The notes under the pieces are model-generated. The model searched no databases, was not told where the DNA came from, and saw only the letters and a list, made by a program, of their open reading frames with translations. This document shows positions 113 through 31,658 of a stretch of 64,000 nt of DNA, piece by piece (position 1 is the stretch's first letter; each line of letters begins with the position of its first letter). The stretch is from assembly GCA_000171835.1 (NCBI GenBank), contig ABHC01000006.1, positions 1 to 64,000 on the forward strand, read 5' to 3'. The translations under genes and the position numbers were made by a program. The DNA comes from an alpha proteobacterium BAL199. Lineage in GTDB: Bacteria > Pseudomonadota > Alphaproteobacteria > Thalassobaculales > Thalassobaculaceae.

Positions 113-685
113 ATGGCTCTCGGCAACCAAGCTAAGACACTGACGGACGTTCAGCAGCGGGCGGTTCTCGCGTATCTCGACACTACGATGGACGCGAAGC
201 GGAACAGGGTGATGTTTCTGCTCTCGGTCGACGCCGGATTGCGGGCGAAAGAGATCGCGCTTCTGGAGTGGTCGATGGTCACGGACTCAGCTGGCGATCT
301 GACTGATGAGATCCGGCTCGAGGATCGGTCATCGAAGGGGCGTTCCGGCGGCGTCGTGTTCATGAGCAAGCGGCTTCAGGCAGCTCTGGCGATCTATGCG
401 GCTGATCAGAGCTTGAATGGGACGGTGATCAAGTCTCAGCGACGGCGATGGATGTCGGCTCAGGTCGTCACGAATTGGTTCTTCAAACTTTACAGATCGC
501 TTGGTTACGAAGGATGCTCTTCCCATTCTGGTCGTCGAACAGCGATCACGCGCTGGGCGCGGTCGATCTCGACGGTTGGTGGGTCGTTGCGGGATGTGCA
601 GAGTCTCGCGAGGCATAGTTCGCTTCAGATGACACAGCGGTACATTGAGGTCAGCGAAGACGCGATGAAGCGGGTGGTGGGATGA
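113..685 (+). CDS. Tyrosine recombinase, catalytic domain only
   Basis: This 190-residue protein is almost entirely the catalytic domain of a tyrosine recombinase. The expected active-site set is visible: Arg44 (AGLRAKEI), a hairpin lysine near 75, His138-x-x-Arg141 (HSGR), His168 and the nucleophile Tyr177 (QRYIEV). The N-terminal core-binding domain found in integrases of about 300-400 residues is missing. The ATG start has a good ribosome-binding site (GGAGG, 5-bp spacing). The stop codon overlaps the start of the Sel1 gene as ATGA, so the two are probably translationally coupled. A near-identical copy is at 3867-4439. It could rearrange DNA or act as an accessory to the larger integrase; which is unknown. 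Confidence 0.88.
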   Translation: MALGNQAKTLTDVQQRAVLAYLDTTMDAKRNRVMFLLSVDAGLRAKEIALLEWSMVTDSAGDLTDEIRLEDRSSKGRSGGVVFMSKRLQAALAIYAADQSLNGTVIKSQRRRWMSAQVVTNWFFKLYRSLGYEGCSSHSGRRTAITRWARSISTVGGSLRDVQSLARHSSLQMTQRYIEVSEDAMKRVVG

Positions 686-1824
686 TGAAACGACTTCTTG
701 CAACGCTGGTGATTTTGACGGGCTTAATCGGCTCGGCTGGGGCTGTGTGGGCGCAGGATTTCAATAAAGGATTGAAGGCTGCTCAAAGCGGTGATTTTGC
801 GACTGCGTTGAAAGAATGGAAACCGCTCGCTGAGCAGGGACGTGCAGATGCGCAGTTTAATATTGGTCTGATGTACAAAAGGGGCGATGGCGTCACTCAG
901 GATTATGCTGAAGCGCTGAAGTGGTATCGCAAGGCTGCTGAGCAGGGACGTGCAGATGCGCAGTTTAATATTGGTCTGATGTACAAAAGGGGCGATGGCG
1001 TCACTCAGGATTATGCTGAAGCGCTGAAGTGGTATCGCAAGGCTGCTGAGCAGGGACGTGCAGATGCGCAGTTTAATATTGGTCTGATGTACAAAAGGGG
1101 CGATGGCGTCACTCAGGATTATGCTGAAGCGCTGAAGTGGTATCGCAAGGCTGCTGAGCAGGGACGTGCAGATGCGCAGTTTAATATTGGTCTGATGTAC
1201 AAAAGGGGCGATGGCGTCACTCAGGATTATGCTGAAGCGCTGAAGTGGTATCGCAAGGCTGCTGAGCAGGGACGTGCAGATGCGCAGTTTAATATTGGTC
1301 TGATGTACAAAAGGGGCGATGGCGTCACTCAGGATTATGCTGAAGCGCTGAAGTGGTATCGCAAGGCTGCTGAGCAAGGACATGCGAGCTCGCAATACAA
1401 TCTTGGTGAGATGTACGTCAACGGCGATGGCGTCACTCAGGATTATGCTGAGGCGGTGAAGTGGTATCGCAAGGCTGCTGAGCAGGGACATGCGGGTTCG
1501 CAGTTTAATATTGGTTATATGTACAAAAGGGGCGAAGGCGTCACTCAGGATTATGCTGAGGCGGTGAAGTGGTATCGCAAGGCTGCTGAGCAGGGACATG
1601 CGGGTGCGCAGAACAATCTTGGTCTGATGTACTACAACGGCAAAGGCGTCTTACAGGATACGATTGCAGCTCATATGTGGTTCAACATCGCTGTTGTAAA
1701 CGGGAGTAAGGCTGCTGTGAAAAATAGGGATATCGCAGCGGGCAAACTTTCGTCATCGGACATCGTAGAAGCACAGAATCGGGCAAAACGCTGTATGGCG
1801 TCTGGCTACAAAGACTGCGACTGA
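682..1824 (+). CDS. Secreted Sel1-repeat protein, 8 repeats
   Basis: The 380-residue product starts with a signal peptide (basic MMKR, hydrophobic core, AQ cleavage region near 24-25), so it is exported, probably to the periplasm. It is then built from eight 36-residue Sel1-like repeats with the usual spacing (A..LG.MY..G.GV..D...A..WY.KAA). The last repeat is degenerate and is followed by a short tail with two cysteines. The first five repeats are identical in protein sequence. Sel1 repeats form alpha-solenoids that bind other proteins; no enzymatic domain is present. It overlaps the upstream recombinase by four bases. A shorter paralogue with four diverged repeats is at 4436-5146. The target is unknown. 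Confidence 0.87.
   Translation: MMKRLLATLVILTGLIGSAGAVWAQDFNKGLKAAQSGDFATALKEWKPLAEQGRADAQFNIGLMYKRGDGVTQDYAEALKWYRKAAEQGRADAQFNIGLMYKRGDGVTQDYAEALKWYRKAAEQGRADAQFNIGLMYKRGDGVTQDYAEALKWYRKAAEQGRADAQFNIGLMYKRGDGVTQDYAEALKWYRKAAEQGRADAQFNIGLMYKRGDGVTQDYAEALKWYRKAAEQGHASSQYNLGEMYVNGDGVTQDYAEAVKWYRKAAEQGHAGSQFNIGYMYKRGEGVTQDYAEAVKWYRKAAEQGHAGAQNNLGLMYYNGKGVLQDTIAAHMWFNIAVVNGSKAAVKNRDIAAGKLSSSDIVEAQNRAKRCMASGYKDCD
841..1380 (+). repeat. Five tandem 108-bp repeats inside the Sel1 gene
   Basis: Units start at 841, 949, 1057, 1165 and 1273. They are identical at the DNA level, silent positions included, except for one substitution (a at 1377) in the last. Later Sel1 units in the same gene differ at many positions. 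This points to a recent slippage or unequal-crossover expansion. Confidence 0.95.
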
Positions 1825-2030: not shown

Positions 2031-2080
2031 TACGTTGACATCGTAGGGGTCACAGGTTCAATCCCTGTCGCGCCCGCCAT
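2031..2080 (+). other. Attachment site: 3' half of tRNA-Val(GAC), copy 1
   Basis: The sequence holds the anticodon arm (loop TTGACAT, anticodon GAC), the variable loop, the T arm (ACAGG-TTCAATC-CCTGT) and the 3' acceptor strand CGCGCCC followed by GCCA. No D arm or 5' acceptor strand precedes it, so it is not a functional tRNA gene. Copies at 8416-8465 and 12282-12331 differ only at the discriminator position (A instead of G). It is the crossover region left by integration into the tRNA 3' end. Confidence 0.9.
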
Positions 2081-2198
2081 CCCTAGATCGTTTTTCAGAA
2101 AACACACAACATCTAGAGACGGTGGTCTCGTTGATCGTCAGAAGTGGTAGTTTTCGGTGGTCCTAGAATCGCTGATTTAAGCGGATTTGGTTGACGGG

Positions 2199-2243
2199 TT
2201 TACAAAGTTTTTACAAACTCGATTGCATGAGTGAGTTTGTAAA
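2199..2243. other. Arm-type sites and inverted repeat at the integrase start
   Basis: TTTACAAAGT (2199-2208) and TTTACAAACT (2210-2219) are 11 bp apart. TTTACAAACTC (2210-2220) also pairs with GAGTTTGTAAA (2233-2243) as an 11-bp perfect inverted repeat across the likely ATG of the integrase gene. Binding here by the integrase or an excisionase could both shape the recombination complex and repress the gene. Confidence 0.45.
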
Positions 2244-3420
2244 CCGAGACTCTATCGAAATTCTGGACGGTGTGTATCTCACGCGCTCGACGGCATCTCC
2301 GGTCTGGCAGGCGTATTTTCGGGTCGACGGACGCACATACCGGAAGACGACGAAGAAGCGGGATTTCGACCAGGCGAAGATGGTCGCGCTGGAGCTGTTC
2401 TATAACGCGCGACGGACCGGCGATCTGGTTCAAGCGACGAAGGCGATCCCGTTCACGAAGCTGGCAGATGTATACGAAAGCTACGTCGCGAAGCGGATGC
2501 GGAGCCGCTATCACGTCGATACGATGAAGCGGCACCTGCTCCCGTATTTTTGCGACGTGAAGGATATCGCGAAGATCGATCAGGGCGCCGTCACTCGGTA
2601 CGTCGATTGGCGGACATCAAAATCGGAGAAGGTCCCGACCCCTCAGACGCTCAATCGCGAGAACACGGTTCTCCGGCAGATGCTGGAGCACGCGGTCGAG
2701 CAGGGCTGGATCGAGAAAGCTCCGAAGGTCCCACATTTGAGCGAGCGTCTGACGCGTCGGCGTCGGCGCCATTTCACGACAGATGAATATCGGACGTTGT
2801 TGCGAACGGCTCGCAGACGCATTGCTCGGGCGAAGACGGACCCGTTGCAGCGACATACGCTCTGGCAGCGTCAGCTTCTCTATGACGTGATTCTGTTTCT
2901 GTCGAATTCCGGTCTGCGGGTCGACGAGTTGCGGACATTGAAGTGGCGCAACGTCGATTTCGAATCAGAACAGGTGGTTCTGGAGCAGGCAGGTAAGACG
3001 CAGAGCAACAGGCGCTTGTTCGTCAGAGCGTCTGGGATGCTTGCTTTGAAACGAATTCGCGATCGGCGACAGGCGTGGCTGGACGAGCACGGCTCGGACG
3101 AGCGGATCGATGCGCATCACAACGTTACGACGCTTCAGAACGGCAACACGGTCAAGTCGTTCAGCACTGGATTTGACGGGCTGCTGGCTGAGTGCGGATT
3201 TCATTACGCAAAGATTGAAGAAAAGCATACACTTACATCTCTAAGGCACACATACGCGACGTTCTCGCTGACGAGACGGCGCGGCAAACGTGCTTCGATG
3301 CGAGCGCTCGCGAAGCAGATGGGCACAAGCGAGCGGATGATCCAGCAGCACTACGGTCACGACGAGATCGGTGACTATGAGGACGAGCTTCGGGGATTAG
3401 TTGGAATGAATGACACTTGA
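2227..3420 (+). CDS. int: Tyrosine integrase of the middle element
   Basis: This is a full-length phage-type integrase of 397 residues from the ATG at 2227; a TTG at 2191 would add 12 residues. The N-terminal third looks like an arm-binding plus SAM-like core-binding region (YRKTTKKRDFDQAKMVALE). The catalytic domain has Arg in NSGLRVDELRTLKW, the His-x-x-Arg box in TSLRHTYATF and the terminal box ERMIQQHYGHD, which supplies His/Tyr. It starts about 150 bp after att copy 1 and is transcribed away from it, the usual arrangement for an integrase beside its own attachment site. It most likely integrates and excises the 2081-8415 element at tRNA-Val. Confidence 0.92.
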   Translation: MSEFVNRDSIEILDGVYLTRSTASPVWQAYFRVDGRTYRKTTKKRDFDQAKMVALELFYNARRTGDLVQATKAIPFTKLADVYESYVAKRMRSRYHVDTMKRHLLPYFCDVKDIAKIDQGAVTRYVDWRTSKSEKVPTPQTLNRENTVLRQMLEHAVEQGWIEKAPKVPHLSERLTRRRRRHFTTDEYRTLLRTARRRIARAKTDPLQRHTLWQRQLLYDVILFLSNSGLRVDELRTLKWRNVDFESEQVVLEQAGKTQSNRRLFVRASGMLALKRIRDRRQAWLDEHGSDERIDAHHNVTTLQNGNTVKSFSTGFDGLLAECGFHYAKIEEKHTLTSLRHTYATFSLTRRRGKRASMRALAKQMGTSERMIQQHYGHDEIGDYEDELRGLVGMNDT

Positions 3421-3754
3421 TTGTGTCGTGCATATATAAGTTCGTTATTGATATTATTAATAAATTTAGCAGTCATATTTCAGTCCTTTTTTTGTAAAAT
3501 AAAACGAATCGATAAAAATAACGTCGTAAAGAGCGATCGTGTCGCGTCGTTGTTCTTTATCACTGTCTGTATACTACCGTATTTCTGACAGAATGTCAAG
3601 TAAAAAATGAAAGAATTTGAAATTTTCAAGGCGTTTATCAAAAAATCAGAATTGAGTTTAGTTATTATTAAAAGTTACTAGGAAAGCGTTTGTATGAAGC
3701 GAAGAATCTCGGCAATTTCGATAAGTTAGAAAAATTGTATTTTCTAACATCAAC
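3421..3754. other. AT-rich intergenic region with hairpin 3725-3748
   Basis: No convincing gene is visible in these 334 bases, which are much more AT-rich than the flanks. Near the right end GTTAGAAAA (3725-3733) pairs perfectly with TTTTCTAAC (3740-3748) around a 6-nt loop, just before the duplicated block begins at 3755. It may be a terminator for the integrase or a junction structure. Confidence 0.45.
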
Positions 3755-3824
3755 TGGCTAAGTGATTGAACTGATTGGGTTCGCGTCTCTCGCTGTATGG
3801 GCGGTATTGGTTTGCTGGTTAGAA

Positions 3825-3842
3825 AATCATGATATCATGATT
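3825..3842. promoter_or_regulatory. Perfect 18-bp palindrome upstream of recombinase gene
   Basis: aatcatgatatcatgatt reads the same on both strands and ends 24 bp before the recombinase start. The left-hand copy (71-88) has one mismatch. Location and symmetry suit a dimeric repressor or a recombinase-binding site. Confidence 0.45.
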
Positions 3843-3866
3843 TATCTAATGATTACGGAGGCTTAA

Positions 3867-4439
3867 GTGGCTCTCGGCAAACAAGCTAAGACACTGACGG
3901 ACGTTCAGCAGCGGGCGGTTCTCGCGTACCTCGACACGACGATGGACGCGAAGCGGAACAGGGTGATGTTTCTGCTCTCGGTCGACGCCGGATTGCGGGC
4001 GAAAGAGATCGCGCTTCTGGAGTGGTCGATGGTCACGGACTCAGCTGGCGATCTGACTGATGAGATCCGGCTTGAGGATCGGTCATCGAAGGGGCGTTCC
4101 GGCGGCGTCGTGTTCATGAGCAAGCGGCTTCGGGCAGCTCTGGCGGTCTATGCGGCTGATCAGAGCTTGAATGGGACGGTGATCAAGTCTCAGCGACGGC
4201 GAGGGATGTCGGCTCAGGTCGTGACGAATTGGTTTTTCCAGCTTTACAGATCGCTTGGTTACGAAGGATGCTCTTCCCATTCGGGTCGTCGAACAGCGAT
4301 CACGCGCTGGGCGCGGTCGATCTCGGCGGTTGGTGGGTCGCTGAGGGACGTACAGGCGCTGGCTCGTCATAGCTCGTTGCAGATGACGCAGCGCTATATC
4401 GAAGTCAGCGAGAATGCGATGAAGCGGGTGGTGGGATGA
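3867..4439 (+). CDS. Tyrosine recombinase, catalytic domain only (second copy)
   Basis: This 190-residue protein is nearly identical to the product of 113-685 and keeps every active-site residue: Arg44, the hairpin lysine, HSGR, the downstream His and Tyr177. The start codon is GTG instead of ATG, with the same upstream GGAGG. Differences include Gln/Arg at 89, Trp/Gly at 113 and several C-terminal substitutions, so the copies have begun to diverge but not to decay. The stop overlaps the start of the next gene as ATGA. It lacks the N-terminal binding domain of a complete integrase and coexists with one (2227-3420), so its own task is unclear. Confidence 0.87.
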   Translation: MALGKQAKTLTDVQQRAVLAYLDTTMDAKRNRVMFLLSVDAGLRAKEIALLEWSMVTDSAGDLTDEIRLEDRSSKGRSGGVVFMSKRLRAALAVYAADQSLNGTVIKSQRRRGMSAQVVTNWFFQLYRSLGYEGCSSHSGRRTAITRWARSISAVGGSLRDVQALARHSSLQMTQRYIEVSENAMKRVVG

Positions 4440-5146
4440 TGAAACGACTTCTTGCAACGCTGGTGATTTTGACGGGCTTAATCGGCTCAGGTGGGGATGT
4501 GTGGGCGCAGGATTTCAATAAAGGATTGAAGGCTGCTCAAAGCGGTGATTTTGCGACTGCGTTAAAAGAATGGAAACCGCTCGCTGAGCAGGGACGTGCA
4601 GATGCGCAGAACAATCTTGGTTGGATGTACGAAAGGGGCGATGGCGTCACTCAGGATTATGCTGAAGCGCTGAAGTGGTATCGCAAGGCGGCTGAGCAGG
4701 GCGATGCGGCTGCGCAGTTTAATATTGGTTTGATGTACAAAATGGGCAATGGCGTCACTCAAGATTATGCTGAGGCGGTGAAGTGGCATCGCAAGGCAGC
4801 GGAGCAGGGCGAAGCGGCTGCGCAGTACAATCTTGGTGGGATGTACAAAAGGGGCGATGGCGTCACTCAGGATGATGCTGAAGCGCTGAAGTGGTATCGC
4901 AAGGCTGCTGAGCAGGGCGATGCGGTTGCGCAGTACAATCTGGGAGTGAGTTACTACAACAGCGAAGGCGTCTTACAGGATACGATTGCAGCTCATATGT
5001 GGTTCAACATCGCTGCGGCGAATGGGATTAATGCTGCTGTGAAAAATAGGGATACGTTAGCTGAAAAACTTACTAAAGCAGACATTATTGAAGCACAAAA
5101 GCGGGCGAAACGCTGTGTGGCGTCTGGATACAAGGACTGCAACTGA
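4436..5146 (+). CDS. Secreted Sel1-repeat protein, 4 repeats
   Basis: The 236-residue product has the same signal peptide and opening as the 682-1824 protein but only four Sel1 repeats, none identical to another. The degenerate last repeat (beginning near GVLQDTIAAHMWF) and the tail with two cysteines are shared with the paralogue. It is coupled to the upstream recombinase by a four-base overlap. An exported alpha-solenoid that binds a protein partner is the natural reading; no catalytic motif is visible. The repeat-number difference between the two modules suggests that repeats are gained and lost quickly. Confidence 0.87.
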   Translation: MMKRLLATLVILTGLIGSGGDVWAQDFNKGLKAAQSGDFATALKEWKPLAEQGRADAQNNLGWMYERGDGVTQDYAEALKWYRKAAEQGDAAAQFNIGLMYKMGNGVTQDYAEAVKWHRKAAEQGEAAAQYNLGGMYKRGDGVTQDDAEALKWYRKAAEQGDAVAQYNLGVSYYNSEGVLQDTIAAHMWFNIAAANGINAAVKNRDTLAEKLTKADIIEAQKRAKRCVASGYKDCN

Positions 5147-5228
5147 CGAAATGGGCAATGGTTGGGCGGAGTAGAAATAAAGGTAGTGTTAATATTCTTG
5201 GAATCGAAACATAAATCAATATAGATTT

Positions 5229-5618
5229 GTGCGTGTCGTGTGTGCTTTATGTAATATAGGAAAAATTTCTATATCTGGAATAATATTAATTATTCTATTC
5301 ATTCCGCTAGCGTCTGCGTTTGTAAATTTTGGCGATACAGTTAAGAATATAGATCTAGATGGTTCTGGTCAAATTACTATTTCGGATATTTGGATATTGT
5401 TTTGGAAGACGTTAGATTTAATATTTTTTGGATATGGAAAGGTTGTAGTCGATTGGGCTTGTGGGTGGCTATCGATTAATGCGGGAACGGTTCTGGCATT
5501 CTTTGAAATTGATCAAATAAGACATGGGATTTTTTGGCACATTATTTATTTTGTTGTCGAAATAATGGCGTATGGGGTCAGCGGATGGGCGATGTTCATT
5601 GCTTGCCTATCCGGTTGA
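5229..5618 (+). pseudogene. Membrane protein with EF-hand loop, 3' end replaced by IS1595
   Basis: The reading frame begins at a GTG with no obvious ribosome-binding site. It encodes a hydrophobic segment (about 15-32), a canonical calcium-binding EF-hand loop at 42-53 (DLDGSGQITISD), then further hydrophobic stretches near 54-70 and 100-128. The insertion sequence starts at 5602, and the last residues plus the stop come from IS sequence. Removing the IS and one target duplication restores an open frame through 6691-6824 (stop at 6822-6824). Base composition is low in GC, like the rest of the element. No family is recognised beyond the EF-hand. Confidence 0.55.
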
Positions 5619-6681
5619 CTCCCATGCCCACTAGATCTAGCGTTTGGCATGGATGTCCTGGCCCGAGAAGATCTGCCGTTTCCGCAGTCGCTGCCGGAAT
5701 TTCAGTGCTTTTTTCCCGACGACGCGGCCTGTGCTGCATATCTCGAAAAGGCCCGCTGGAATGGTGGGTTCGTCTGCCCGAGATGCGGCGTTGTCGGCGA
5801 ACCGTTCCGTTTCGAGGCGCGTCCGGGCGTTCTGCGCTGCCGCGCCTGTCGCAAAGACGTAAGCCTGATGGCTGGGACTGTCATGGAGCGCAGTCACACG
5901 CCGTTGTCGACCTGGTTCTGGGCGGCTTACCTGATGGCCAGCCAGACGCCCGGAATGTCGGCCGTTCAATTTCAACGGCAACTCGGCCTGTCGCGCTATG
6001 AGACTGCATTCGGCATCCTTCACAAGCTCCGCGCCGCGATGGTGCGCCCAGAGCGCGACAAGATTGGCGGCAAGCCGCAAGAGCATGTCGAAGTGGATGA
6101 AACGTGGGTTGGAGGGCGCACCCGAGGCGAGGGCCGGGGAGTCCATCACAAGGTTCTCGTCTCCTGCGCCGTGGAGGTGCGTCGCCGCAAGCCGGGAACC
6201 AAACTCGACAATCGGAAAGACGGTCGCTACGCGGGACGCGTTCGTCTCGCCGTCGTCCCCGACCGCAGCGCCAATTCGCTCGGCAGTTTCGTCGAAAACG
6301 CCGTTGCTCCCGGATCGCTGATCGTCACCGACGACTGGAGCGGCTATGCCGGGCTTCGCAAGCGCGGATTCGACCACCACGCGATCGCCGAATGCGGAGA
6401 CCCGGAGATCGCAGAGGAATTCCTGCCGATCATCCACTTGGTCTTCGCCAATCTGAAGACCTGGATCAATGGCATCCATCACGGCGTCAGTGCCAAGCAT
6501 CTGCAAGCCTACCTCAACGAGTTCACGTTCCGCTTCAATCGGCGCTTCTATCCGTTCAACTCGTTCCGCTCACTGCTCGGAATCGCCGGCGGGGCCGCAG
6601 CGCCGACCTTCGACGGGCTCTACTCGGGAGAATGGACTCACCCTACATTTAGTGGGTGTGGGTAACAACCGGATAGGCAAG
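5602..6681 (+). mobile_element. IS1595-family insertion sequence, copy 1
   Basis: This 1080-bp element has inverted ends (CTTGCCTATCCGGTTG at the left; its complement at the right), followed by a less conserved inner part. It is flanked by the direct repeat GTTCATTG (5594-5601 and 6683-6690, with one extra G before the right copy). An 8-bp target duplication is typical of the family. It carries one transposase gene. A second copy, identical over all the bases I compared, is at 30579-31658. It interrupts the EF-hand membrane protein gene. Confidence 0.92.
5649..6665 (+). CDS. IS1595-family transposase
   Basis: The 338-residue protein has an N-terminal zinc ribbon at about 41-70 (CPRC near 41-44 and CRAC near 64-67). 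The ISXO2-like DDE-type transposase domain follows, with acidic residues visible in VEVDETWVGG and IVTDDWSGYAG and an Asn/His-rich C-terminal box (HHGVSAKHLQAYLNEF). This architecture is diagnostic for IS1595. It is probably active or recently active, since another identical-looking copy with a clean target duplication lies in the same window. Confidence 0.93.
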   Translation: MDVLAREDLPFPQSLPEFQCFFPDDAACAAYLEKARWNGGFVCPRCGVVGEPFRFEARPGVLRCRACRKDVSLMAGTVMERSHTPLSTWFWAAYLMASQTPGMSAVQFQRQLGLSRYETAFGILHKLRAAMVRPERDKIGGKPQEHVEVDETWVGGRTRGEGRGVHHKVLVSCAVEVRRRKPGTKLDNRKDGRYAGRVRLAVVPDRSANSLGSFVENAVAPGSLIVTDDWSGYAGLRKRGFDHHAIAECGDPEIAEEFLPIIHLVFANLKTWINGIHHGVSAKHLQAYLNEFTFRFNRRFYPFNSFRSLLGIAGGAAAPTFDGLYSGEWTHPTFSGCG

Positions 6682-6690
6682 GGTTCATTG

Positions 6691-6824
6691 GAGACAAGGC
6701 TAGTGGTGGGAATCAGACAGATGAAACCCGTGCATCAGCAAACGCATGGCGGAAATCTGCCGATCCAGACGGACTCACCCGTTTGATTTTCACCACTAGC
6801 AGGCATATCCGAGGCGATTGTTGA
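6691..6824 (+). pseudogene. 3' remnant of the EF-hand membrane protein gene; contains a 10-bp inverted repeat
   Basis: After the right target duplication the frame of the 5229 gene resumes (GDKASGGNQTDE) and runs to a TGA at 6822-6824, directly abutting the convergent gene that ends at 6825. The neat convergence supports this as the true 3' end. The segment also contains GCTAGTGGTG (6699-6708) and its exact complement CACCACTAGC (6791-6800), a possible hairpin or miniature-element ends. Confidence 0.5.
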
Positions 6825-7130
6825 TCATCGTCTTGGGATTTGTCGGATCAACGCTGGATCGTTCTGGTCGACTGCGATCTGGAGTGCTGAAAGGTAAGCG
6901 GTATCAGCGATCAGGTCCGCAAGCGCATCGATCTTGGTGTTGGGGTCCGACGTCTTCTTTACAGCAGTTCGGTGGGCGCTGATGCGAGCGAGAATAGCAA
7001 TCGCGAGAATGCGAGCTGTGCCAGGTCGGAGAGCAAGCTCATCGAGGGGCTCTCGTTGCTGGTCGGTAGACGGAGTAGCGGCAGCGTCTGACAGAAACGC
7101 TCGGAACGGCATCACTCGTGCTTGAGGCAT
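6825..7130 (-). CDS. Hypothetical 101-residue protein
   Basis: A small, Ala-rich, mostly alpha-helical protein (LADLIADTAYLSALQIAVDQ) with no recognised domain or membrane segment. It overlaps the end of the upstream gene 7112-7303 by 19 bp, so the two look like a small operon on the minus strand. An internal Met at residue 7 is an alternative start. It lies inside the middle integrative element between the insertion sequence and the Rep-like gene. Function is unknown; an accessory role in element maintenance is only a guess. Confidence 0.5.
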   Translation of the reverse strand: MPQARVMPFRAFLSDAAATPSTDQQREPLDELALRPGTARILAIAILARISAHRTAVKKTSDPNTKIDALADLIADTAYLSALQIAVDQNDPALIRQIPRR

Positions 7131-7303
7131 ATGATCGTCACTTTCGATAGGTCGTTGCCGACAAACTTCTCAAGCTCTCTGGGAACGGCTCGGATGTCAG
7201 CGGTTGTCTGAAGCTCAAGGGTCAAGGTTGATGCGTATGTGGAGCGATTAATCGCTGTTGCGATCTCAGATCTGGATGGCTTGTTGACGTGCTTGGTTTT
7301 CAT
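7112..7303 (-). CDS. Hypothetical 63-residue protein
   Basis: This short protein has a basic N-terminus (MKTKHVNKPSRSEIATAIN) and no known domain. The minus-strand start is preceded by GAGAAGGA four bases upstream, a good ribosome-binding site, which supports it as a real gene despite its size. The downstream 101-residue gene overlaps its end. The basic head could bind nucleic acid, but no helix-turn-helix can be assigned with confidence. Confidence 0.55.
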   Translation of the reverse strand: MKTKHVNKPSRSEIATAINRSTYASTLTLELQTTADIRAVPRELEKFVGNDLSKVTIICLKHE

Positions 7304-7574
7304 GGCGTCCTTCTCTCAATGGCTGTCAGTCTATCAGCTCAGTTAATGTAAATTAATCGAATTGTCGTCTGAGCAATAATCAATGCTCGTTAGTGTTCAA
7401 TGTGCGAATGAATGATTATTAGTGATTAGTTACAGTTATCTCTAAAGCGATGTTTTGGAAAAACATCACTTAAAAGGTAGATGCTGCATTCAAAAAATAA
7501 CAAGTCAGAGAATCAAATCTAGGCAGACGCTAATCTGCGATGCTCATTGGTCTGTCTAATTGAAGTGCATATAA

Positions 7575-8048
7575 CTATATTATAATATTAGAGTAACGGT
7601 GTTGAAGTTGCTTAAAGTTATAGGATATTGTGTTTTCAATATGTTCGTGTGTCATATCTGAGAATCTTCGTATATTTATCGAATATGGACCTTTTAAAAC
7701 ATAGGGATTGTTTGATGCTGTTTCGATGATGGCGTTCTCGAAAAAATCGTCGTCTAAGGTCTCCGGCTTTTGTAGCAGGACATGAAGGTGAAAGCGCCGG
7801 TCCGGACTTCTTTCAACAGAGGCAATTGCTGCAATCGTGGGCTTAAACCGGCGATAGTGCGTGGGTGACGTGCAGCGTTTACTAAGTGATATTCTGAATC
7901 GGTCAAAGGTCTTTTCGGCAATAATATCGTCTACGAGTTGAGCTCCGGTCATATGTCTTATTGCTTTGACAAGATTAATGACGACTGAATGCGTCGGCGA
8001 TAATCTAAAGTTCTTTTCGATATTATTAAAAATGCTATTTTGAATCAT
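7575..8048 (-). CDS. Putative HUH endonuclease / rolling-circle Rep-like protein
   Basis: The 157-residue protein contains RRFHLHVLLQKP, with His87-x-His89 in a hydrophobic strand as in motif 2 of HUH nucleases. At a suitable distance NTISYNFKQ offers Tyr143-x-x-Lys146, the pattern of the catalytic tyrosine motif of single-tyrosine HUH enzymes. HUH proteins nick one DNA strand to start rolling-circle replication, transfer or transposition. A GAAAGAAG sequence precedes the ATG on the minus strand. The gene reads away from an AT-rich, palindrome-containing region (8049-8303) near the element end. I recognise motifs only, not a named family, and the length is small for a plasmid Rep. Confidence 0.45.
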   Translation of the reverse strand: MIQNSIFNNIEKNFRLSPTHSVVINLVKAIRHMTGAQLVDDIIAEKTFDRFRISLSKRCTSPTHYRRFKPTIAAIASVERSPDRRFHLHVLLQKPETLDDDFFENAIIETASNNPYVLKGPYSINIRRFSDMTHEHIENTISYNFKQLQHRYSNIII

Positions 8049-8303
8049 TTCATATTTCTTCTTTCAAAAACTTTTCAATTATATTTATAATACACTGAGT
8101 GTTAGCTAGATGTTGTTGATTATAATATAAAATATATTCAACAGATAATATATTATAAATCATAACTGAGGATTTGTCAATAAATTTATCAGGTATGTCT
8201 TGTGAATACTTATTTAATCATTAAAAAACTGCATCGGTAGGCGAGCGCGGTTCGTCTCTATGCGCATGTATTATTCAGGGCTTCACGAGAAGTTTGAAAT
8301 ACG
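8049..8303. other. AT-rich region with palindromes, candidate origin of the element
   Basis: No gene is visible. The region includes a broad imperfect palindrome whose arms begin TGTTGA and end TCAACA (about 8113-8143) and the perfect palindrome ATAATATATTAT at 8145-8156. It lies directly upstream of the Rep-like gene and next to the integrase arm-type sites. An origin or nick site is possible, but no family consensus was matched. Confidence 0.3.
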
Positions 8304-8324
8304 TTTACAAACTATTTGCAAACT
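8304..8324. other. Putative integrase arm-type sites near att copy 2
   Basis: TTTACAAACT (8304-8313) and TTTGCAAACT (8315-8324) repeat at 11-bp spacing, like the pairs at 1919-1938 and 2199-2219. They mark the right end of the middle element, opposite the pair beside its integrase gene. Confidence 0.45.
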
Positions 8325-8415
8325 TTTCCGATGCTCCGATATCACTGGATATAGATAAACGTCGGGATCGAGATCGCTACATATTGTGATTTTGAGGGAT
8401 ACAAGGGATCTCTTG

Positions 8416-8465
8416 TACGTTGACATCGTAGGGGTCACAGGTTCAATCCCTGTCGCGCCCACCAT
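8416..8465 (+). other. Attachment site: 3' half of tRNA-Val(GAC), copy 2
   Basis: This 50-bp copy matches 2031-2080 except for A rather than G before the CCA, and it matches copy 3. The anticodon arm, T arm and 3' acceptor strand are present; the 5' half of the tRNA is absent. It is the junction between the middle and third elements. Confidence 0.9.
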
Positions 8466-8642
8466 CTTACTCTCTGAAATTGTTGATGCTTCCGAGACGG
8501 CGACCGGCCTCCTGGCCGGAAGCGGGCGCAATCGGAAGCGTACCGGAAGCACAGCGCAGGAAGTCGCAGTCAGACTGGACGTCCCTGCGCGATGTACCCC
8601 CTACTGTCAGAGTGTGGCGGGCTGCAACACCGGTAAGTGGCT

Positions 8643-9056
8643 TCAATTGGGAGCCGGGATCCGGTCAAGGATCCGTAGCAGGTGGTTTGCAATGAAGATG
8701 ACCTCGATCGCCTCCAAGGGATGCGGCAGCGGTCCCGACATGCGCTCGTCAATCCAGGCGTCGATCGCCTCTTCGGTGTAGAACACCGACTTACCAAATT
8801 TGTGGAAGGACGGCCCGCCGCCGATGCACCGCAGCTTGGCGAGGGTCTTCTCCGAGACCGTGATGCCATGCCGATTCTCCGCATGAGCAACGGCAGCGGA
8901 CGGGGTCAGGTAGGGTTTGTTGTAGGTCACGCTGGGCAGGCCCCATGTTGGGCGCCCGTTCAAAATGGGAGAACGGGCGCTGATTGCGCTCCGTCTCTCC
9001 CCCAAGGAGTTCGTGGCCTGCACCCGGTCGCCCCAAGCGATCCGCGCCGGTCCCAC
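8643..9056 (-). CDS. AlpA/excisionase-like helix-turn-helix protein
   Basis: Residues from about 48 on form a short DNA-binding domain of the AlpA/HTH_17 type (TPSAAVAHAENRHGITVSEK, then GPSFHKFGKSVFYTEEAIDAW), in which a winged helix reads DNA and the YTEEAIDAWI strand-helix is typical. Such proteins regulate integrase expression or act as excisionases of islands. The 42 residues before Val43 (GTG at 8930) are not obviously part of the fold, so the true start may be 8930. It lies in the third element with an integrase at the other end, which fits a role in excision. Confidence 0.65.
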   Translation of the reverse strand: MGPARIAWGDRVQATNSLGERRSAISARSPILNGRPTWGLPSVTYNKPYLTPSAAVAHAENRHGITVSEKTLAKLRCIGGGPSFHKFGKSVFYTEEAIDAWIDERMSGPLPHPLEAIEVIFIANHLLRILDRIPAPN

Positions 9057-9167
9057 TAGACATTACTATTCTACCCGCAGACCCCGCCATGGTCTACAAA
9101 TCTATCTTTTCCGTCGCGGCTGTTTGCTGTGTGCTGCTGTAATCTCAACGACTTCGCTGCCGCCGCG

Positions 9168-10877
9168 GTAACAGGGGCAAAACCCCGGGCGGATCGGTGC
9201 GTCAGATTGACTCGGCGTGCTCGGTCGGGATTCCCAAGTCGTGGGATATCGGATCCGATGGGGAATGCTGCCGCCCACCGCTCTCGATGGTCTGTCGCAC
9301 GCCGAGCTGAAGGCTCTGGTGGAGCGGCTTCTGGGCGAGGTGTCGAAGCTGAAGGAGACAGTCACCGAGCAGCGCGATGAGATCGCGCGACTGAAGGGGC
9401 TGACGGCACGTCCGAAGCTGAAGCCGAGCGGCATGGAGCAGGCGAGCGCAGCCAAGGCGCCGTCTGGTGGGCGCGGCAAGCGCCGTGGTCGCGGCGCCAA
9501 GAAGCTGTCGCGTGTCGTGGTCGAGGATCGGGTGGTGAAGGCTTCGGTTCCGCCGGGCTCGCGCTTCAAGGGCTACGAGACGTTCGTCGTTCAGGATCTG
9601 GTTGTCCGCGCGTCGGCGACCCGGTTCCGCCGCGAGCGCTGGGTGACGCCCGATGGCCTGACCGTGGTGGCACCGCTGCCGAGCGGGATCGACGGCCATT
9701 TCGGGCCGGAGCTGCGGCGCTTCGTGCTGGCGCAGTACCACCAGGGGCAGGTCACCGTGGCGCGGCTGGTAGAACTGCTCCAGGCCATCGGCATCGAGAT
9801 CTCCAAGCGGCAGGTGGTGCGGCTGCTGATCGAGGATCAGGATCGCTTCGTCGCGGAGGCCCGTGCGGTGCTGCGCGCGGGGCTGGAAACCGCGGCATGG
9901 GTGACGGTCGACGACACCGGCGCACGCCACAAGACGCAGAACGGCTACTGCACCCAGATCGGCAACGACCGCTTCGCCTGGTTCGCCACCACCGGTTCGA
10001 AGAGCCGGCTCAACTTCCTGGAGCTGCTGCGCGCCGGCCATGGCGACTACGTCGTCAATGCCGCCGCACTCGCCTATATGCGCAGCCGCTCGCTCGCCGG
10101 CCCGATCATCCGCCAGCTCGCCGAGCACGGCGACCAGCGCTTCGCGGATCGGGCCGCCTGGCAGGCCCATCTCGAACAGCTCGGCATCACGGCTCTCGAG
10201 GTTCTGCCCGATCCCGTGCAGATCGCCACGGAAGGCGCGCTGTGGGGCAGCATCAAGGCGCACGGCCTGCTGCCCGACACGGTGATCGTCAGCGACGACG
10301 CCGGCCAGTTCAATGTCGGCCGGCACGCGCTGTGCTGGGTCCATGCCGAGCGGCTGGTCCACAAGCTCGAGACCTTCACCGACGACAAACGCGCCGCCCA
10401 GCAGCGAATACGCAGCCTCATCTGGTGGTTCTACGACGACCTCAAGGCCTATCGACGCGATCCTACCCTGCAACGCAAGGCCGCCTTGCGAGCCCGCTTC
10501 GACCGCATCTTCCGACGCCGAACCGGCTTCGCGACCCTCGATCGCCTGCTCGCCCGGCTGCTCGCCAACAAGAACGAGCTGCTGATGGTCCTCGACCATC
10601 CGGAGATCCCGCTCCATACCAACGGCTCCGAGAACGACATCCGCTGCCAGGTCATCAAGCGAAAGATCAGCGGCGGCACACGCAGCGACAACGGACGCGA
10701 CGCCCGCGACACCTTCCTGTCGCTGCTCAAGACATGCGACAAGCTCGGCATCCGCTTCTGGGAGTATCTCGGTGACAGGCTCGCCATCACCGGCGCAAAA
10801 GCCGTCCCGCATCTCCCGCTAATTGTCGCTCAGCCAGCCAGGCCTGTCTAAAGCGCCCGGCCTTTTGCCCCTGTTAC
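9168..10877 (+). mobile_element. IS66-family (single-gene, ISBst12-like) insertion sequence
   Basis: The 1710-bp element has inverted terminal repeats starting GTAACAGGGGCAAAA (9168-9191 and the complement at 10854-10877) and an 8-bp target duplication CCGCCGCG (9160-9167 and 10878-10885). Only the large transposase gene is present, without tnpA/tnpB, as in the ISBst12 subgroup. It landed in the 3' end of the integrase gene to its right, supplying that gene's new stop codon. Confidence 0.93.
9265..10851 (+). CDS. IS66-family transposase (TnpC-like)
   Basis: The protein is 528 residues from the ATG at 9265, which is preceded by GGGGA; a start at 9217 would add 16. It begins with a leucine-zipper-like coiled coil ([20 protein letters not shown]), then a basic linker, then the IS66 DDE domain with [38 protein letters not shown] and the C-terminal acidic box [10 protein letters not shown]. 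These are the family's hallmark segments. The single-gene layout and intact ends suggest the element can still move. Confidence 0.92.
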
Positions 10878-12127
10878 CCGCCGCGCATGGTGGCGTCGAT
10901 CCGCCTGCTCACCCGGTCGGCAGCGGCGATCAACGCCGAATCGAGCCGCCTGACATAGTGGACTGCTGTCACGCCGCGTCGCGCATGCCCCAGCAACTCC
11001 CCGATGGTGCCATCCCCGAAGCCCTCATCTGCGGCGACCGAGGCGAACGTCCTTCTGCAGTCGTGTGACCTGGCATCAGCGAGTCCGGCGGCGTCGAAGA
11101 TCGCGGCCAGTTGTTTCTTCAGGTCAGCTGCCCGCGCCGACTGGCCGGTCCTCGGATCGCGTGATCGCGACGACGGGAACACGAACGCTGCGTCGAGCTG
11201 TGGCAGGTGGCGTAGCAGATCGACAGCCGGCGAGCCGAGCGGCCGCAGGGATCGCCCCGTCTTCGTGCTGGACAGCCTCAAGCTCGCGGCGTCGAGGTCG
11301 ACTTCGGCCCATCGGAGACCGCACGCCTCCTCGCGACGAAGGCCGGTGAGCGCGATCAGCCGCAGCGCCCCGGCTGCCATCGGCTGCTTCTCCTGTGCCG
11401 CTTCGATCGCCTTGCCGAGTGCCTGCATCTCGTCCACCGTTAGCACCCGGTCCTTCGTTCCCGCCTTGGCGGTGTCGACGCCATGAGCCGGGTTGACGGT
11501 GGGCACTAGGTCACGCTTGGCCGCCCAGGAGTAGATGCCGCCCAGGAGGTCGATCACCCGTGCCGCCGTGCCAGCGCCGCCGGTGACATGGGCCACCCCC
11601 CTGCTTTTCGTTTTCACCCGACCTGCGGTCTTGCCCGATGCGATGTCGTCGGCCAGACGCTGCACCGCGGCCCGTGTGAGTGCGTGCGCAGGCACGTTGC
11701 CGATGAGCGGGACGAGGTGCCGGTCGATCCGGCCGCGGTCAATGGCCAAGGTGCTGGCAGCTTTCGGGCGGCCGAAGCGTGTACGGACTTGCCCAGCCTC
11801 CGCCGTCTCCATGTAGACCGTGCAAAGCTCGGCGACGGTCAACGCTGCCCGCCGTTCTTGCCGCTCGAGCTGAGGATCGCGACCTTCGGAGGCCGCGTCG
11901 ATCGCCAACTTGGCACGCTCGCGTGCCTGGTCGAGCGTCAGGGTCTCGGCGAGCCCGATTTTGAGTCGCCGCTGTCGTCGACCGACGCGGACCTGACACA
12001 CGTAGACTTTGCGGCCGGAGGGATACACCCGCAGCCCGAAACCCGGCAACGCTGTGCACCACAGAAATATGTCCCCTTCGCCATCGGCATGGGCAGTCTC
12101 GACCATTCGCTTGGTAAGCCGTGCCAT
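10874..12127 (-). CDS. int: P4-type tyrosine integrase, C-terminus cut by IS66
   Basis: The protein starts at MARLTKRMVE (12127; a TTG at 12145 would add six residues). The N-terminal domain is of the DUF4102 type found in P4-like island integrases (GDIFLWCTALPGFGLRVYPS). The catalytic domain shows ALTGLRREEACGLRW, the SHDCRRTFASVA box and LGHARRGVTAVHYVRR with the catalytic Tyr. The stop codon lies in the IS66 inverted repeat. Without the IS the frame would continue about 20 residues (GSEVVEITAAHSKQ) to a stop near 9104. All catalytic residues precede the cut, so activity may survive. The gene starts about 150 bp from att copy 3. Confidence 0.88.
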   Translation of the reverse strand: MARLTKRMVETAHADGEGDIFLWCTALPGFGLRVYPSGRKVYVCQVRVGRRQRRLKIGLAETLTLDQARERAKLAIDAASEGRDPQLERQERRAALTVAELCTVYMETAEAGQVRTRFGRPKAASTLAIDRGRIDRHLVPLIGNVPAHALTRAAVQRLADDIASGKTAGRVKTKSRGVAHVTGGAGTAARVIDLLGGIYSWAAKRDLVPTVNPAHGVDTAKAGTKDRVLTVDEMQALGKAIEAAQEKQPMAAGALRLIALTGLRREEACGLRWAEVDLDAASLRLSSTKTGRSLRPLGSPAVDLLRHLPQLDAAFVFPSSRSRDPRTGQSARAADLKKQLAAIFDAAGLADARSHDCRRTFASVAADEGFGDGTIGELLGHARRGVTAVHYVRRLDSALIAAADRVSRRIDATMRGG

Positions 12128-12281
12128 CGAGGATTCCGGAAGCAAATCGGAAGCGGATTGGAGTAATCTTCAGGGTATCATCGGAAATGCTAATCACTCA
12201 AGATATCGTAATATATTCATTATATCAGAGTGATAAGGGATTTGCGGTAAACGATGGTAATCAACGGAAAGAAAGTTCTCC

Positions 12282-12331
12282 TACGTTGACATCGTAGGGG
12301 TCACAGGTTCAATCCCTGTCGCGCCCACCAT
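12282..12331 (+). other. Attachment site: 3' half of tRNA-Val(GAC), copy 3
   Basis: This copy is preceded by C, extending the anticodon stem by one base, and ends ...CGCGCCCACCA. There is no D arm upstream, so it is again a fragment, not a gene. It is the boundary between the element array and the chromosome. The intact tRNA-Val gene should lie to the left of the window. Confidence 0.9.
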
Positions 12332-28988: not shown

Positions 28989-30611
28989 ATGACCGGACCC
29001 GACGCTCAGTTTGACGCTTGGAATCCGGGTATCGCCTCGGCGATTCCGGCGCGTCTTTTGCCGTTGGTGACGCTTTACAGGCCGGAGAACTCGAGCGTTG
29101 GCTACCGGGAGGCCAGGGAACTGGCTGAGATCTGCGGGCTGAACCCGTACGAAATGACCGCGTTCGGCGTTCGCCGATTGGTCGTGCATGAACTGCTGAT
29201 CCGTGTGACTGCCGATCTTCATGTGCCGGATGGGCCGAACTATGCCGATCTTGGCCTGCGTCTGCGCGGCATGACCGCCCGCATACTCGAAGCCCATGTT
29301 GAGCCAAAGATCGGCGATCTCGAACGGGCCTTTGACGAGTTGCGCGATGATATCGACAACCGGCTCCGCGCGCTGCTCGATCGGGATATCTTCGCCCGCC
29401 CTGCTCCGGTGCGCGTGGCCAAGCAAAGCATTCTCGCGCGGATCTTCGGCAAAAAGGAGCAAGCCAGCGCCGAAGAAACGCTGCCGGAGCTCATCGCAAT
29501 AACACGGTGGGAGAATGCGATTCCGCAGGCCGACTCCCAACTCGAAAAGGTGTGCCTGCAAGGACTGCGCAAGATCGTCTCGGGAATTGTGGGACAGCGC
29601 GGCCGCCTCATGGCCGACAGGGATACTGTGGTCCGGTTGGCGTCGAACTGGATATGCAACTCCTACGGAAGCGACAGGATCGGAGACATGCTGGATCCGA
29701 TCATCCGAGACGCCGCTGCCGCAGAAAACTACAAGTATCTGCCATTCCAGAACTCGCCGGTGATCCTGAACGTCAAGGGGGCGTCTGCCGCCGGGAAAAG
29801 CACTATTCGTCCACTGCAAAGAAAACTTGCGCAACGTTTGGGGGTGCCCTGGGAGTATTTCGCTTTGATCAGTCCGGATTATTGGCGAAAATTTCTTCTT
29901 GATTATAAAAGTCTTGGGGATGATCAAAAGTACGCGGCGATGCTGACCGGGCAGGAACTCGAAATAATCGATAAGAAGCTCGACGGATACATTGAGCGTA
30001 AGGCGACGCGCTCGGAGCTTCCGCATCTCCTGATCGACAGGTTCCGGTTCGACAGCTTTCAATCAGGGACAAGCCAGCCGGCCGACAGCCGATTGCTGAG
30101 CAGATTCGGTGACACGGTGTTCATGTTCTTCGTCATCACGCCGCCCGCCGAAACGGTGGAACGTGCGTGGACGCGCGGGATTGAGACGGGGAGATACAAG
30201 GCCGTTGACGACCTTCTCTATCACAATATCGAAGCCTACACGGGAATGCCTCAACTGTTCTTTACCTGGGTGAAGAAAGACCGGCAGAAAGTACATTTTG
30301 AATTTCTGGATAACAGTATTCCATATGGCGAAACGCCTCGATCGGTCGCTTTCGGGTGGAACGACAAGATTGCGATTCTCGATCTGGAATGCTTAAGGAA
30401 AATGGTGGTCTATCAAAGAATCAACGTTGATGCCCGAAAGCCGGAAGATGTCCTTCTCCGGACGGAATCTCCGTCAAATGACATTGTACTGGAATGCATT
30501 AGGAGAATTTCGGATGTCACATTTGTTGACCCTGGGACGCTGGAAGTTGTGGGTCACACAAAAAATGGAAAATGCGACCTTGCCTATCCGGTTGACTCCC
30601 ATGCCCACTAG
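28989..30611 (+). CDS. P-loop kinase-like protein, interrupted by IS1595
   Basis: The start is ATG 28989. About 240 helical residues of no recognised family precede a P-loop nucleotide-binding domain: GASAAGKST at about 264-272, then ALISPDYWRKFLLDY and HLLIDRFRFDSF, which resemble zeta-toxin/phosphotransferase-type kinases. The gene is 151 bp downstream of tctA in the same direction. IS1595 copy 2 starts after codon 530 (30578). The last ten residues and the stop are IS-encoded. Joining across the IS gives 585 residues, ending at 31834. All visible kinase motifs lie before the break, so activity may survive. The substrate is unknown. Confidence 0.6.
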   Translation: MTGPDAQFDAWNPGIASAIPARLLPLVTLYRPENSSVGYREARELAEICGLNPYEMTAFGVRRLVVHELLIRVTADLHVPDGPNYADLGLRLRGMTARILEAHVEPKIGDLERAFDELRDDIDNRLRALLDRDIFARPAPVRVAKQSILARIFGKKEQASAEETLPELIAITRWENAIPQADSQLEKVCLQGLRKIVSGIVGQRGRLMADRDTVVRLASNWICNSYGSDRIGDMLDPIIRDAAAAENYKYLPFQNSPVILNVKGASAAGKSTIRPLQRKLAQRLGVPWEYFALISPDYWRKFLLDYKSLGDDQKYAAMLTGQELEIIDKKLDGYIERKATRSELPHLLIDRFRFDSFQSGTSQPADSRLLSRFGDTVFMFFVITPPAETVERAWTRGIETGRYKAVDDLLYHNIEAYTGMPQLFFTWVKKDRQKVHFEFLDNSIPYGETPRSVAFGWNDKIAILDLECLRKMVVYQRINVDARKPEDVLLRTESPSNDIVLECIRRISDVTFVDPGTLEVVGHTKNGKCDLAYPVDSHAH

Positions 30612-31658
30612 ATCTAGCGTTTGGCATGGATGTCCTGGCCCGAGAAGATCTGCCGTTTCCGCAGTCGCTGCCGGAATTTCAGTGCTTTTTTCCCGACGAC
30701 GCGGCCTGTGCTGCATATCTCGAAAAGGCCCGCTGGAATGGTGGGTTCGTCTGCCCGAGATGCGGCGTTGTCGGCGAACCGTTCCGTTTCGAGGCGCGTC
30801 CGGGCGTTCTGCGCTGCCGCGCCTGTCGCAAAGACGTAAGCCTGATGGCTGGGACTGTCATGGAGCGCAGTCACACGCCGTTGTCGACCTGGTTCTGGGC
30901 GGCTTACCTGATGGCCAGCCAGACGCCCGGAATGTCGGCCGTTCAATTTCAACGGCAACTCGGCCTGTCGCGCTATGAGACTGCATTCGGCATCCTTCAC
31001 AAGCTCCGCGCCGCGATGGTGCGCCCAGAGCGCGACAAGATTGGCGGCAAGCCGCAAGAGCATGTCGAAGTGGATGAAACGTGGGTTGGAGGGCGCACCC
31101 GAGGCGAGGGCCGGGGAGTCCATCACAAGGTTCTCGTCTCCTGCGCCGTGGAGGTGCGTCGCCGCAAGCCGGGAACCAAACTCGACAATCGGAAAGACGG
31201 TCGCTACGCGGGACGCGTTCGTCTCGCCGTCGTCCCCGACCGCAGCGCCAATTCGCTCGGCAGTTTCGTCGAAAACGCCGTTGCTCCCGGATCGCTGATC
31301 GTCACCGACGACTGGAGCGGCTATGCCGGGCTTCGCAAGCGCGGATTCGACCACCACGCGATCGCCGAATGCGGAGACCCGGAGATCGCAGAGGAATTCC
31401 TGCCGATCATCCACTTGGTCTTCGCCAATCTGAAGACCTGGATCAATGGCATCCATCACGGCGTCAGTGCCAAGCATCTGCAAGCCTACCTCAACGAGTT
31501 CACGTTCCGCTTCAATCGGCGCTTCTATCCGTTCAACTCGTTCCGCTCACTGCTCGGAATCGCCGGCGGGGCCGCAGCGCCGACCTTCGACGGGCTCTAC
31601 TCGGGAGAATGGACTCACCCTACATTTAGTGGGTGTGGGTAACAACCGGATAGGCAAG
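30579..31658 (+). mobile_element. IS1595-family insertion sequence, copy 2
   Basis: This 1080-bp element matches copy 1 (5602-6681) at a constant offset of 24977 and in the same orientation. It has the same inverted ends and a perfect 8-bp target duplication AATGCGAC (30571-30578 and 31659-31666). The clean duplication and lack of divergence indicate recent transposition. Confidence 0.95.
30626..31642 (+). CDS. IS1595-family transposase (second copy)
   Basis: The 338-residue product is identical to that of 5649-6665: N-terminal zinc ribbon, then the ISXO2-like DDE domain with VEVDETWVGG and IVTDDWSGYAG. Both genes are intact, so either could supply transposase to both elements. The host gene it interrupts encodes a P-loop protein. 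Confidence 0.95.
   Translation: MDVLAREDLPFPQSLPEFQCFFPDDAACAAYLEKARWNGGFVCPRCGVVGEPFRFEARPGVLRCRACRKDVSLMAGTVMERSHTPLSTWFWAAYLMASQTPGMSAVQFQRQLGLSRYETAFGILHKLRAAMVRPERDKIGGKPQEHVEVDETWVGGRTRGEGRGVHHKVLVSCAVEVRRRKPGTKLDNRKDGRYAGRVRLAVVPDRSANSLGSFVENAVAPGSLIVTDDWSGYAGLRKRGFDHHAIAECGDPEIAEEFLPIIHLVFANLKTWINGIHHGVSAKHLQAYLNEFTFRFNRRFYPFNSFRSLLGIAGGAAAPTFDGLYSGEWTHPTFSGCG

Follow-up and report, generated by a model that had tools for sequence, protein, structure and literature searches.

A small gene near one end of an integrated element in the alphaproteobacterium BAL199 raises the question whether such an island is a passive passenger or replicates on its own. A sequence-only reading of the window, by which we mean the whole 64,000-nt stretch analysed here (the start of contig C64 in a 6.1-Mb genome of 69 contigs), had noticed a protein with His-x-His and Tyr-x-x-Lys motifs next to AT-rich palindromic DNA, and had proposed that the element can replicate by rolling circle after excision, as a plasmid-like or satellite element. 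Our analysis suggests that this HUH protein is probably the rolling-circle Rep of a small integrative, plasmid-like element; Reps of this type are small DNA-nicking proteins that initiate the replication of plasmids and small viruses. Since an HUH Rep would here be encoded within a mobile element inserted at a tRNA gene, the island probably copies itself as a circle and is not a passive passenger.

A tandem array of elements at tRNA-Val ends

A 50-bp 3′ end of tRNA-Val(GAC) recurs in the window at 2031, 8416 and 12282 and on contig C27 at 721, 5909 and 17449, and an intact tRNA-Val gene containing this repeat is found on contig C56. The repeats therefore split the region into tandem elements. 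The one that carries the HUH gene, hereafter the HUH element, measures 6.4 kb in the window (2031 to 8416), where an IS1595 and a 101-bp repeat have inserted, and 5.2 kb on C27 (721 to 5909). It encodes int1, int2, a Sel1-type repeat protein, the product of a small ORF, o101, o63 and HUH. In the window its features are the following.

2031–2081, plus strand: left att, 3′ end of tRNA-Val(GAC) with one mismatch (repeat comparison; intact tRNA on C56)
2191–3420, plus strand: int1, tyrosine integrase, 409 aa (Pfam Phage_integrase, E 4.3e-8)
3867–4439, plus strand: int2, 190-aa catalytic-domain-only tyrosine recombinase (a 96% identical copy at 113–685 matches Pfam)
4436–5146, plus strand: protein that we take, from its sequence, to be of the Sel1 repeat type (ORF list)
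5229–5618, plus strand: small ORF that the IS1595 insertion interrupts (nothing in Pfam)
5602–6681, plus strand: IS1595-family insertion, absent from the C27 copy (Pfam DDE_Tnp_IS1595, E 1.3e-38)
6698–6799, strand not applicable: 101-bp repeat with inverted ends, also found several times on C27 (repeat comparison)
6825–7130, minus strand: o101 (homologue in the C56 element, 42.6%, E 4.9e-25)
7112–7303, minus strand: o63 (homologue in the C56 element, 48%, E 1.6e-17)
7424–7471, minus strand: candidate replication origin, hairpin 7445–7471 plus weak motif 7424–7448 (combined score)
7575–8048, minus strand: HUH endonuclease, probable rolling-circle Rep, 157 aa, with H87, H89, Y143 and K146
8092–8139, strand not applicable: hypervariable leader upstream of HUH, overlapping the palindrome at 8120–8165 (two-copy comparison)
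8416–8466, plus strand: right att of the HUH element, common to the next element (tRNA-end repeat)

The proposal that the gene belongs to an integrated element was borne out by the tRNA-end direct repeats and by the element's own integrase beside one of them, and its placement near an element end by the tRNA 3′-end repeat at 8416–8465. Of the two labels offered, plasmid-like fits the element; satellite finds no direct support, as no packaging gene was recognised in it, and a relative was found on one IMG/VR contig. The GC content in 400-bp windows is 30–43% over 7401–8400 versus 49–70% over 8201–12200.

The neighbouring element (8416–12331) encodes another integrase, and a search for HUH found none there. 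The element on C56 (8428–9330 of locus L021, beside the intact tRNA-Val) has the same integrase (99%) and homologues of o63 and o101, and a search of it likewise revealed no HUH gene. Membership of the array therefore does not depend on HUH. Both copies of the HUH element are damaged, int2 being broken on C27 and an IS being inserted in the window copy, which counts against a working Rep. These lesions, the cut int2 on C27 and the gene cut by IS1595 in the window, would agree with a decayed element in which the HUH gene is the leftover of a former replicon and non-functional here. We consider this quite unlikely, as the reading frame is open and all catalytic residues are kept.

The IS1595 insertion is flanked on both sides by GTTCATTG, with one extra G at the right, and its 1080-bp sequence occurs in two identical copies in the window (5602–6681 and 30579–31658). 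The 101-bp repeat is present at 100% identity in several places and in both orientations in the window and on C27 (locus L003). A Sel1-type repeat protein lies next to int2 in each element and differs in repeat number (window 682–1824 and 4436–5146; L003 3222–3824; L021 11735–13180).

The HUH protein, its predicted fold and its relatives

The 157-residue protein with both motifs corresponds to one ORF with an ATG start (7575–8048, minus strand), as previously described; the motifs read H87-L-H89 and Y143-N-F-K146. Of the 368 window ORFs of at least 60 aa, no other combines HUH with a later YxxK. When its own residues were shuffled, this order arose in 1617 of 100000 trials, and at similar spacing in 450 of 100000. 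Because a shuffled protein so often shows the pattern, the motifs alone are just suggestive, and the HUH assignment rests on homology and fold. A second gene copy on C27 encodes a 100% identical protein, and these two copies in the genome both lie within the same element type.

Relatives emerged through profiles. As sole query, the protein had no match among plasmid records (nor had the HUH protein of L077) and no relative in IMG/VR or in GTDB contigs, and against the 98 nearest genomes it recovered the window's own genome only. Comparison with PHROGs and NCBIfam gave nothing useful, and Pfam PF23343 (REP_ORF2-G2P) was matched below its curated cut-off (E 0.027, 15.2 of 27.8 bits). A Microcystis phage match was rejected as chance, since it covers 42 residues at E 0.3, in two records of a single phage. 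In 385 genomes of the same class, the sole-protein query yielded two distant candidates with the motifs, a motif-bearing ORF being present in two of the 29 loci L023–L051, and a profile built from these two matched 12 of the 385 genomes at E 0.01. Seven of the 12, the window's own included, hold an HUH...YxxK ORF on inspection, from which L057 and L059 were left out for internal stops; L060–L062 are without such an ORF. Among 398 genomes of the phylum there were two matches, one of which is the window's own genome. Later searching revealed a relative on one IMG/VR contig (with query A4) and, in GTDB species, 13 loci, of which two are on contigs found before, while IMG/VR scans with int2 and with queries A2, A8 and A9 found no relative. 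The alphaproteobacterial relatives belong to Rhodobacteraceae, Paracoccaceae and others, and further ones were found in Pseudidiomarina, a SUP05 bacterium, a mussel symbiont, Opitutae and a Nitrospiraceae bacterium. A search of the literature outside preprints and most subscription papers found no description of this HUH element family.

Across 13 aligned sequences, F51, R67, E79, R85, H87, H89, P95, F103, Y143, K146 and N154 are invariant. Conservation of the two motifs had been named as a check on the HUH assignment, and H87, H89, Y143 and K146 are retained in 13 of 13. A profile of the other 12 sequences finds the window protein at E 5.9e-13, with the next of 1081 ORFs at 0.069. Moreover, PF23343 matches nine of ten scanned relatives at E ≤3.4e-4, three of them above the cut-off, and the Pfam and PHROG matches of the relatives are replication proteins. 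The window protein is the outlier of the family (17–26% identity), and the first upstream motif (T-L-T-x-K-Q), present in most relatives, is eroded in it; both points count against the Rep reading. The eroded motif and several changed family residues would also fit a decayed gene.

AlphaFold2 with the family alignment gave a model with pLDDT 78.6 and pTM 0.75 (structure alignment A6 omits L084, whose ORF is split, and L085, whose ORF runs off the locus); a single-sequence model with pLDDT 46.3 was kept out of the fold search. The predicted order is β1-α-α-β2-β3(HUH)-α-β4-α(Tyr), and the model places E79 in strand 74–80, H87 and H89 in strand 86–93 and Y143 in helix 134–149. In a Foldseek search of the PDB, the sole match below 0.001 was SIRV1 ORF119 (E 9.1e-4), which we take to be a viral Rep; the ISDra2 transposase ranked second (E 2.0e-3), and unrelated proteins with a similar sandwich had similar E-values. 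VIA-align also placed SIRV1 ORF119 first (PDB 2x3g; Z 9.9, rmsd 3.0, 110 residues), followed by AAV Rep (Z 7.3–8.0), a REP-associated transposase (6.9) and unrelated folds (6–7). Matches among viral models were replication proteins of a rod-shaped virus and of microviruses. The structural comparison with HUH nucleases that had been suggested thus points to a predicted HUH fold of the Rep type. Taken together, homology and modelled fold place the window protein in the HUH endonuclease superfamily, Rep type; its nicking activity is predicted.

The ISDra2 and REP-associated matches are also what a Y1-type transposase would give, that is, a single-gene IS200/REP-associated unit that landed in the element, and such enzymes share the size class and the HUH...Tyr order. 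Furthermore, in six loci (L074, L076, L078, L079, L084 and L085) glmS (NCBIfam), which marks a site also used by Tn7, is next to the HUH gene or to the element that holds it, and no int1 relative was found in these six. We regard this explanation as highly improbable: neither Pfam nor PHROGs returned a transposase match, both genome copies are in the same element, and the relatives keep their neighbours and sit in larger bounded elements. These neighbours, a ribbon-helix-helix gene and ORFs of 60–66 aa, often follow HUH; homology of o63 to the small ORFs was considered and is unestablished (E 1.3). Relatives of int1 occur in six related loci (26–30% identity), and relatives of int2 in five loci besides the C56 element (41–52%). 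In L075 and L081, tRNA repeats of 47 and 46 bp enclose int1, HUH and int2 within 7.05 and 4.64 kb, respectively; for five further tRNA genes, located in L081 and four additional loci, this search found no repeat. DNA methylases (L069, L075), a type I restriction system (L076), BrxL (L077) and a TET-associated glycosyltransferase (L067) are encoded near HUH in relatives, where membership of the element is not always established.

Candidate origin and variable leader

The palindrome upstream of HUH, to which attention had first been drawn, is present at 8120–8165 and proved weak. Hairpins at least as good as its best one arose in 6 of 300 dinucleotide shuffles of 8049–8303, and folding is not clearly above chance for this whole upstream region (z −1.47; 18/200 shuffles) or for 8100–8180 (z −0.91; 34/200). 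Strong hairpins upstream of HUH are not general among the relatives. The palindrome is therefore probably not the origin and was rejected in favour of a stronger candidate, a hairpin on the downstream side of HUH.

Most relatives have a hairpin roughly 30–110 nt 3′ of the HUH stop codon. CTT directly adjoins the 3′ arm of this hairpin, and a TATTACCnAAA-like motif comes after it at a fixed distance. The origin alignment comprises 13 of 17 viewed loci (all but the window, L076, L064 and L066; L065, L071 and L085 were outside the set viewed), and its 13 sites align without gaps. In leave-one-out scans of both strands, 11 of the 13 sites were top of their whole locus, L075 and L083 being the exceptions. 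The stems abutting CTT sum to 104, compared with a mean of 55.4 and a maximum of 71 in 200 shuffles. RNAalifold found no common structure in the origin alignment because the 5′ arms are out of register, and the stems were tested singly instead. TATTAC alone is weakly enriched (8/16 loci, reached by 9/200 shuffle sets). The downstream hairpin and motif are thus likely to form the origin in the family, as judged from these sequence patterns.

In the window, the site at 7424–7471 lies 103 nt beyond the HUH stop codon, on the strand of the gene. It is the best hairpin-plus-motif site in the 64 kb on both strands (score 14.0, runner-up 13.0), under a combined score whose weight was set once by hand, the hairpins, including that of the window, having been viewed beforehand. 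The hairpin was reached in 3 of 300 shuffles. The motif is poor and, taken alone, insignificant, which counts against the Rep reading and would fit decay. When the motif alone was scored, the top site of the window was 3446–3470, which has a poor stem and was reached in 2 of 100 shuffles; it was discarded. It is plausible that 7424–7471 acts as the origin in the window. Among six loci left out of the alignment and scored afterwards (L076, L064, L065, L066, L071 and L085), L076 has its best site directly after HUH, whereas the others do not clearly have theirs there. The best site of the C56 element is 9082–9106 of L021, just upstream of its o63 homologue, where a nearby hairpin is followed by ATTACCTA at the corresponding place.

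Comparison of the window and C27 copies revealed that seven of nine differences over 1670 bp fall within 48 bp upstream of HUH (8092–8139), a clustering reached in 0 of 200000 random placements, and that the 474-bp HUH gene has none. An identical gene beside seven differing sites argues against a decayed HUH gene. In the predicted pairing, one double change preserves the stem pair 8118:8139, whereas pairs are lost through two others. The leader could be explained either by a patch acquired from a third element or by a copy-control signal that has diverged; more speculatively, it may act as an incompatibility determinant and so allow near-identical copies to coexist. In four related loci (L064, L073, L076 and L079), TATAAATAC lies 18–41 nt before the HUH start; this 9-mer occurs in flanking sequence at 5 of 16 loci, which 0 of 200 shuffle sets reach, and is a candidate promoter or operator.

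Replication, mobilisation and related systems

The main rival to replication is mobilisation, since int2 has the make-up of a MobK-like relaxase. The HUH protein, alone or with int2, would nick a transfer origin and a helper conjugation system would move the circle, replication being secondary; the island would then be an integrative mobilizable element. HUH proteins include relaxases, and ribbon-helix-helix genes, one of which often follows HUH in the relatives, also serve relaxases. The relaxases MobK, TcpM and MpsA are described as a catalytic domain without DNA-binding domains (PMC8152469), and int2, which consists of the catalytic domain only, fits the make-up of such recombinase-type relaxases. 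At E 1e-5, 367 plasmid records carry a relative of int2, among them 156 from Piscirickettsia, 156 from Acinetobacter and 11 from Legionella, and 206 of the 367 are typed non-mobilizable; int2, which may be a recombinase or a recombinase-type relaxase, could be an overlooked mobilisation gene. Mobilisation as the main role of the HUH protein is nevertheless unlikely in our view: HUH is followed by a C-terminal YxxK, the closest structure is a viral Rep, and the Pfam and PHROG matches of the relatives are replication proteins. HUH is also not a strict partner of int2, which is present in 18 of 385 genomes, just two of which have HUH.

Rolling-circle replication after excision is most likely, and all that goes beyond the encoding of an HUH Rep is what we infer. 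Recombination of the two tRNA-end repeats by int1 would release an excised circle. The HUH protein would then nick one strand, probably near the hairpin at 7424–7471 just after its own gene, and stay attached through Tyr143, while the free 3′ end would prime copying of one strand. Copies could re-enter the tRNA-end repeats, which would build up the tandem array.

Integrated elements that replicate as circles include the rolling-circle ICEs of actinobacteria (pSAM2) and mobilizable islands (SGI1). These are larger and have transfer or helper functions, whereas none was recognised in the HUH element, apart from the uncertain int2. PF23343 resembles the window protein in the HUH and Tyr regions, aligned over 46–146; the difference is that the latter, encoded in an integrative element, falls below the cut-off, which the relatives L025, L081, L082 and L083 pass. 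SIRV1 ORF119 is the closest solved fold, yet it has 16% identity and comes from a linear archaeal virus. SNJ2-type replicons are likewise integrated elements with an excised circle, which is inferred for the HUH element, and provide a tested precedent for a downstream origin, a Rep gene followed by an essential hairpin origin; they differ in that Rep-Arvir is not an HUH protein and in being archaeal and having virion genes (PMC13107129). The strand-biased circularizing integrative elements are also small and have two tyrosine recombinases, but they are reported to encode no HUH endonuclease, and their second recombinase is long whereas int2 is short (PMC9345347).

Many integrase-bearing islands with genes of unknown function are called passive. 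In a 5-kb island, a Rep together with a conserved origin would account for copy gain, tandem arrays and persistence, and an HUH gene with a downstream hairpin and motif would be a marker for finding other such islands. The bounded cases measure 4.6–7 kb, and the relatives span Alphaproteobacteria, Gammaproteobacteria, Opitutae and Nitrospiraceae. Only tentatively do we suggest a broader picture, a widespread undescribed family of small integrative replicons in which an HUH Rep acts on a conserved hairpin plus TATTACCnAAA origin and the array has a parasitic layer. The C56 element, which is without HUH and has the shared integrase, o63 and o101 homologues and hairpin sites, may be copied in trans, and the array offers a way to test whether elements lacking a Rep depend on the one encoded by an adjacent element. 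Partial or interrupted int2 copies on two further contigs (C38 42574–42993 and C46 24180–24446) are possible remnants of more elements.
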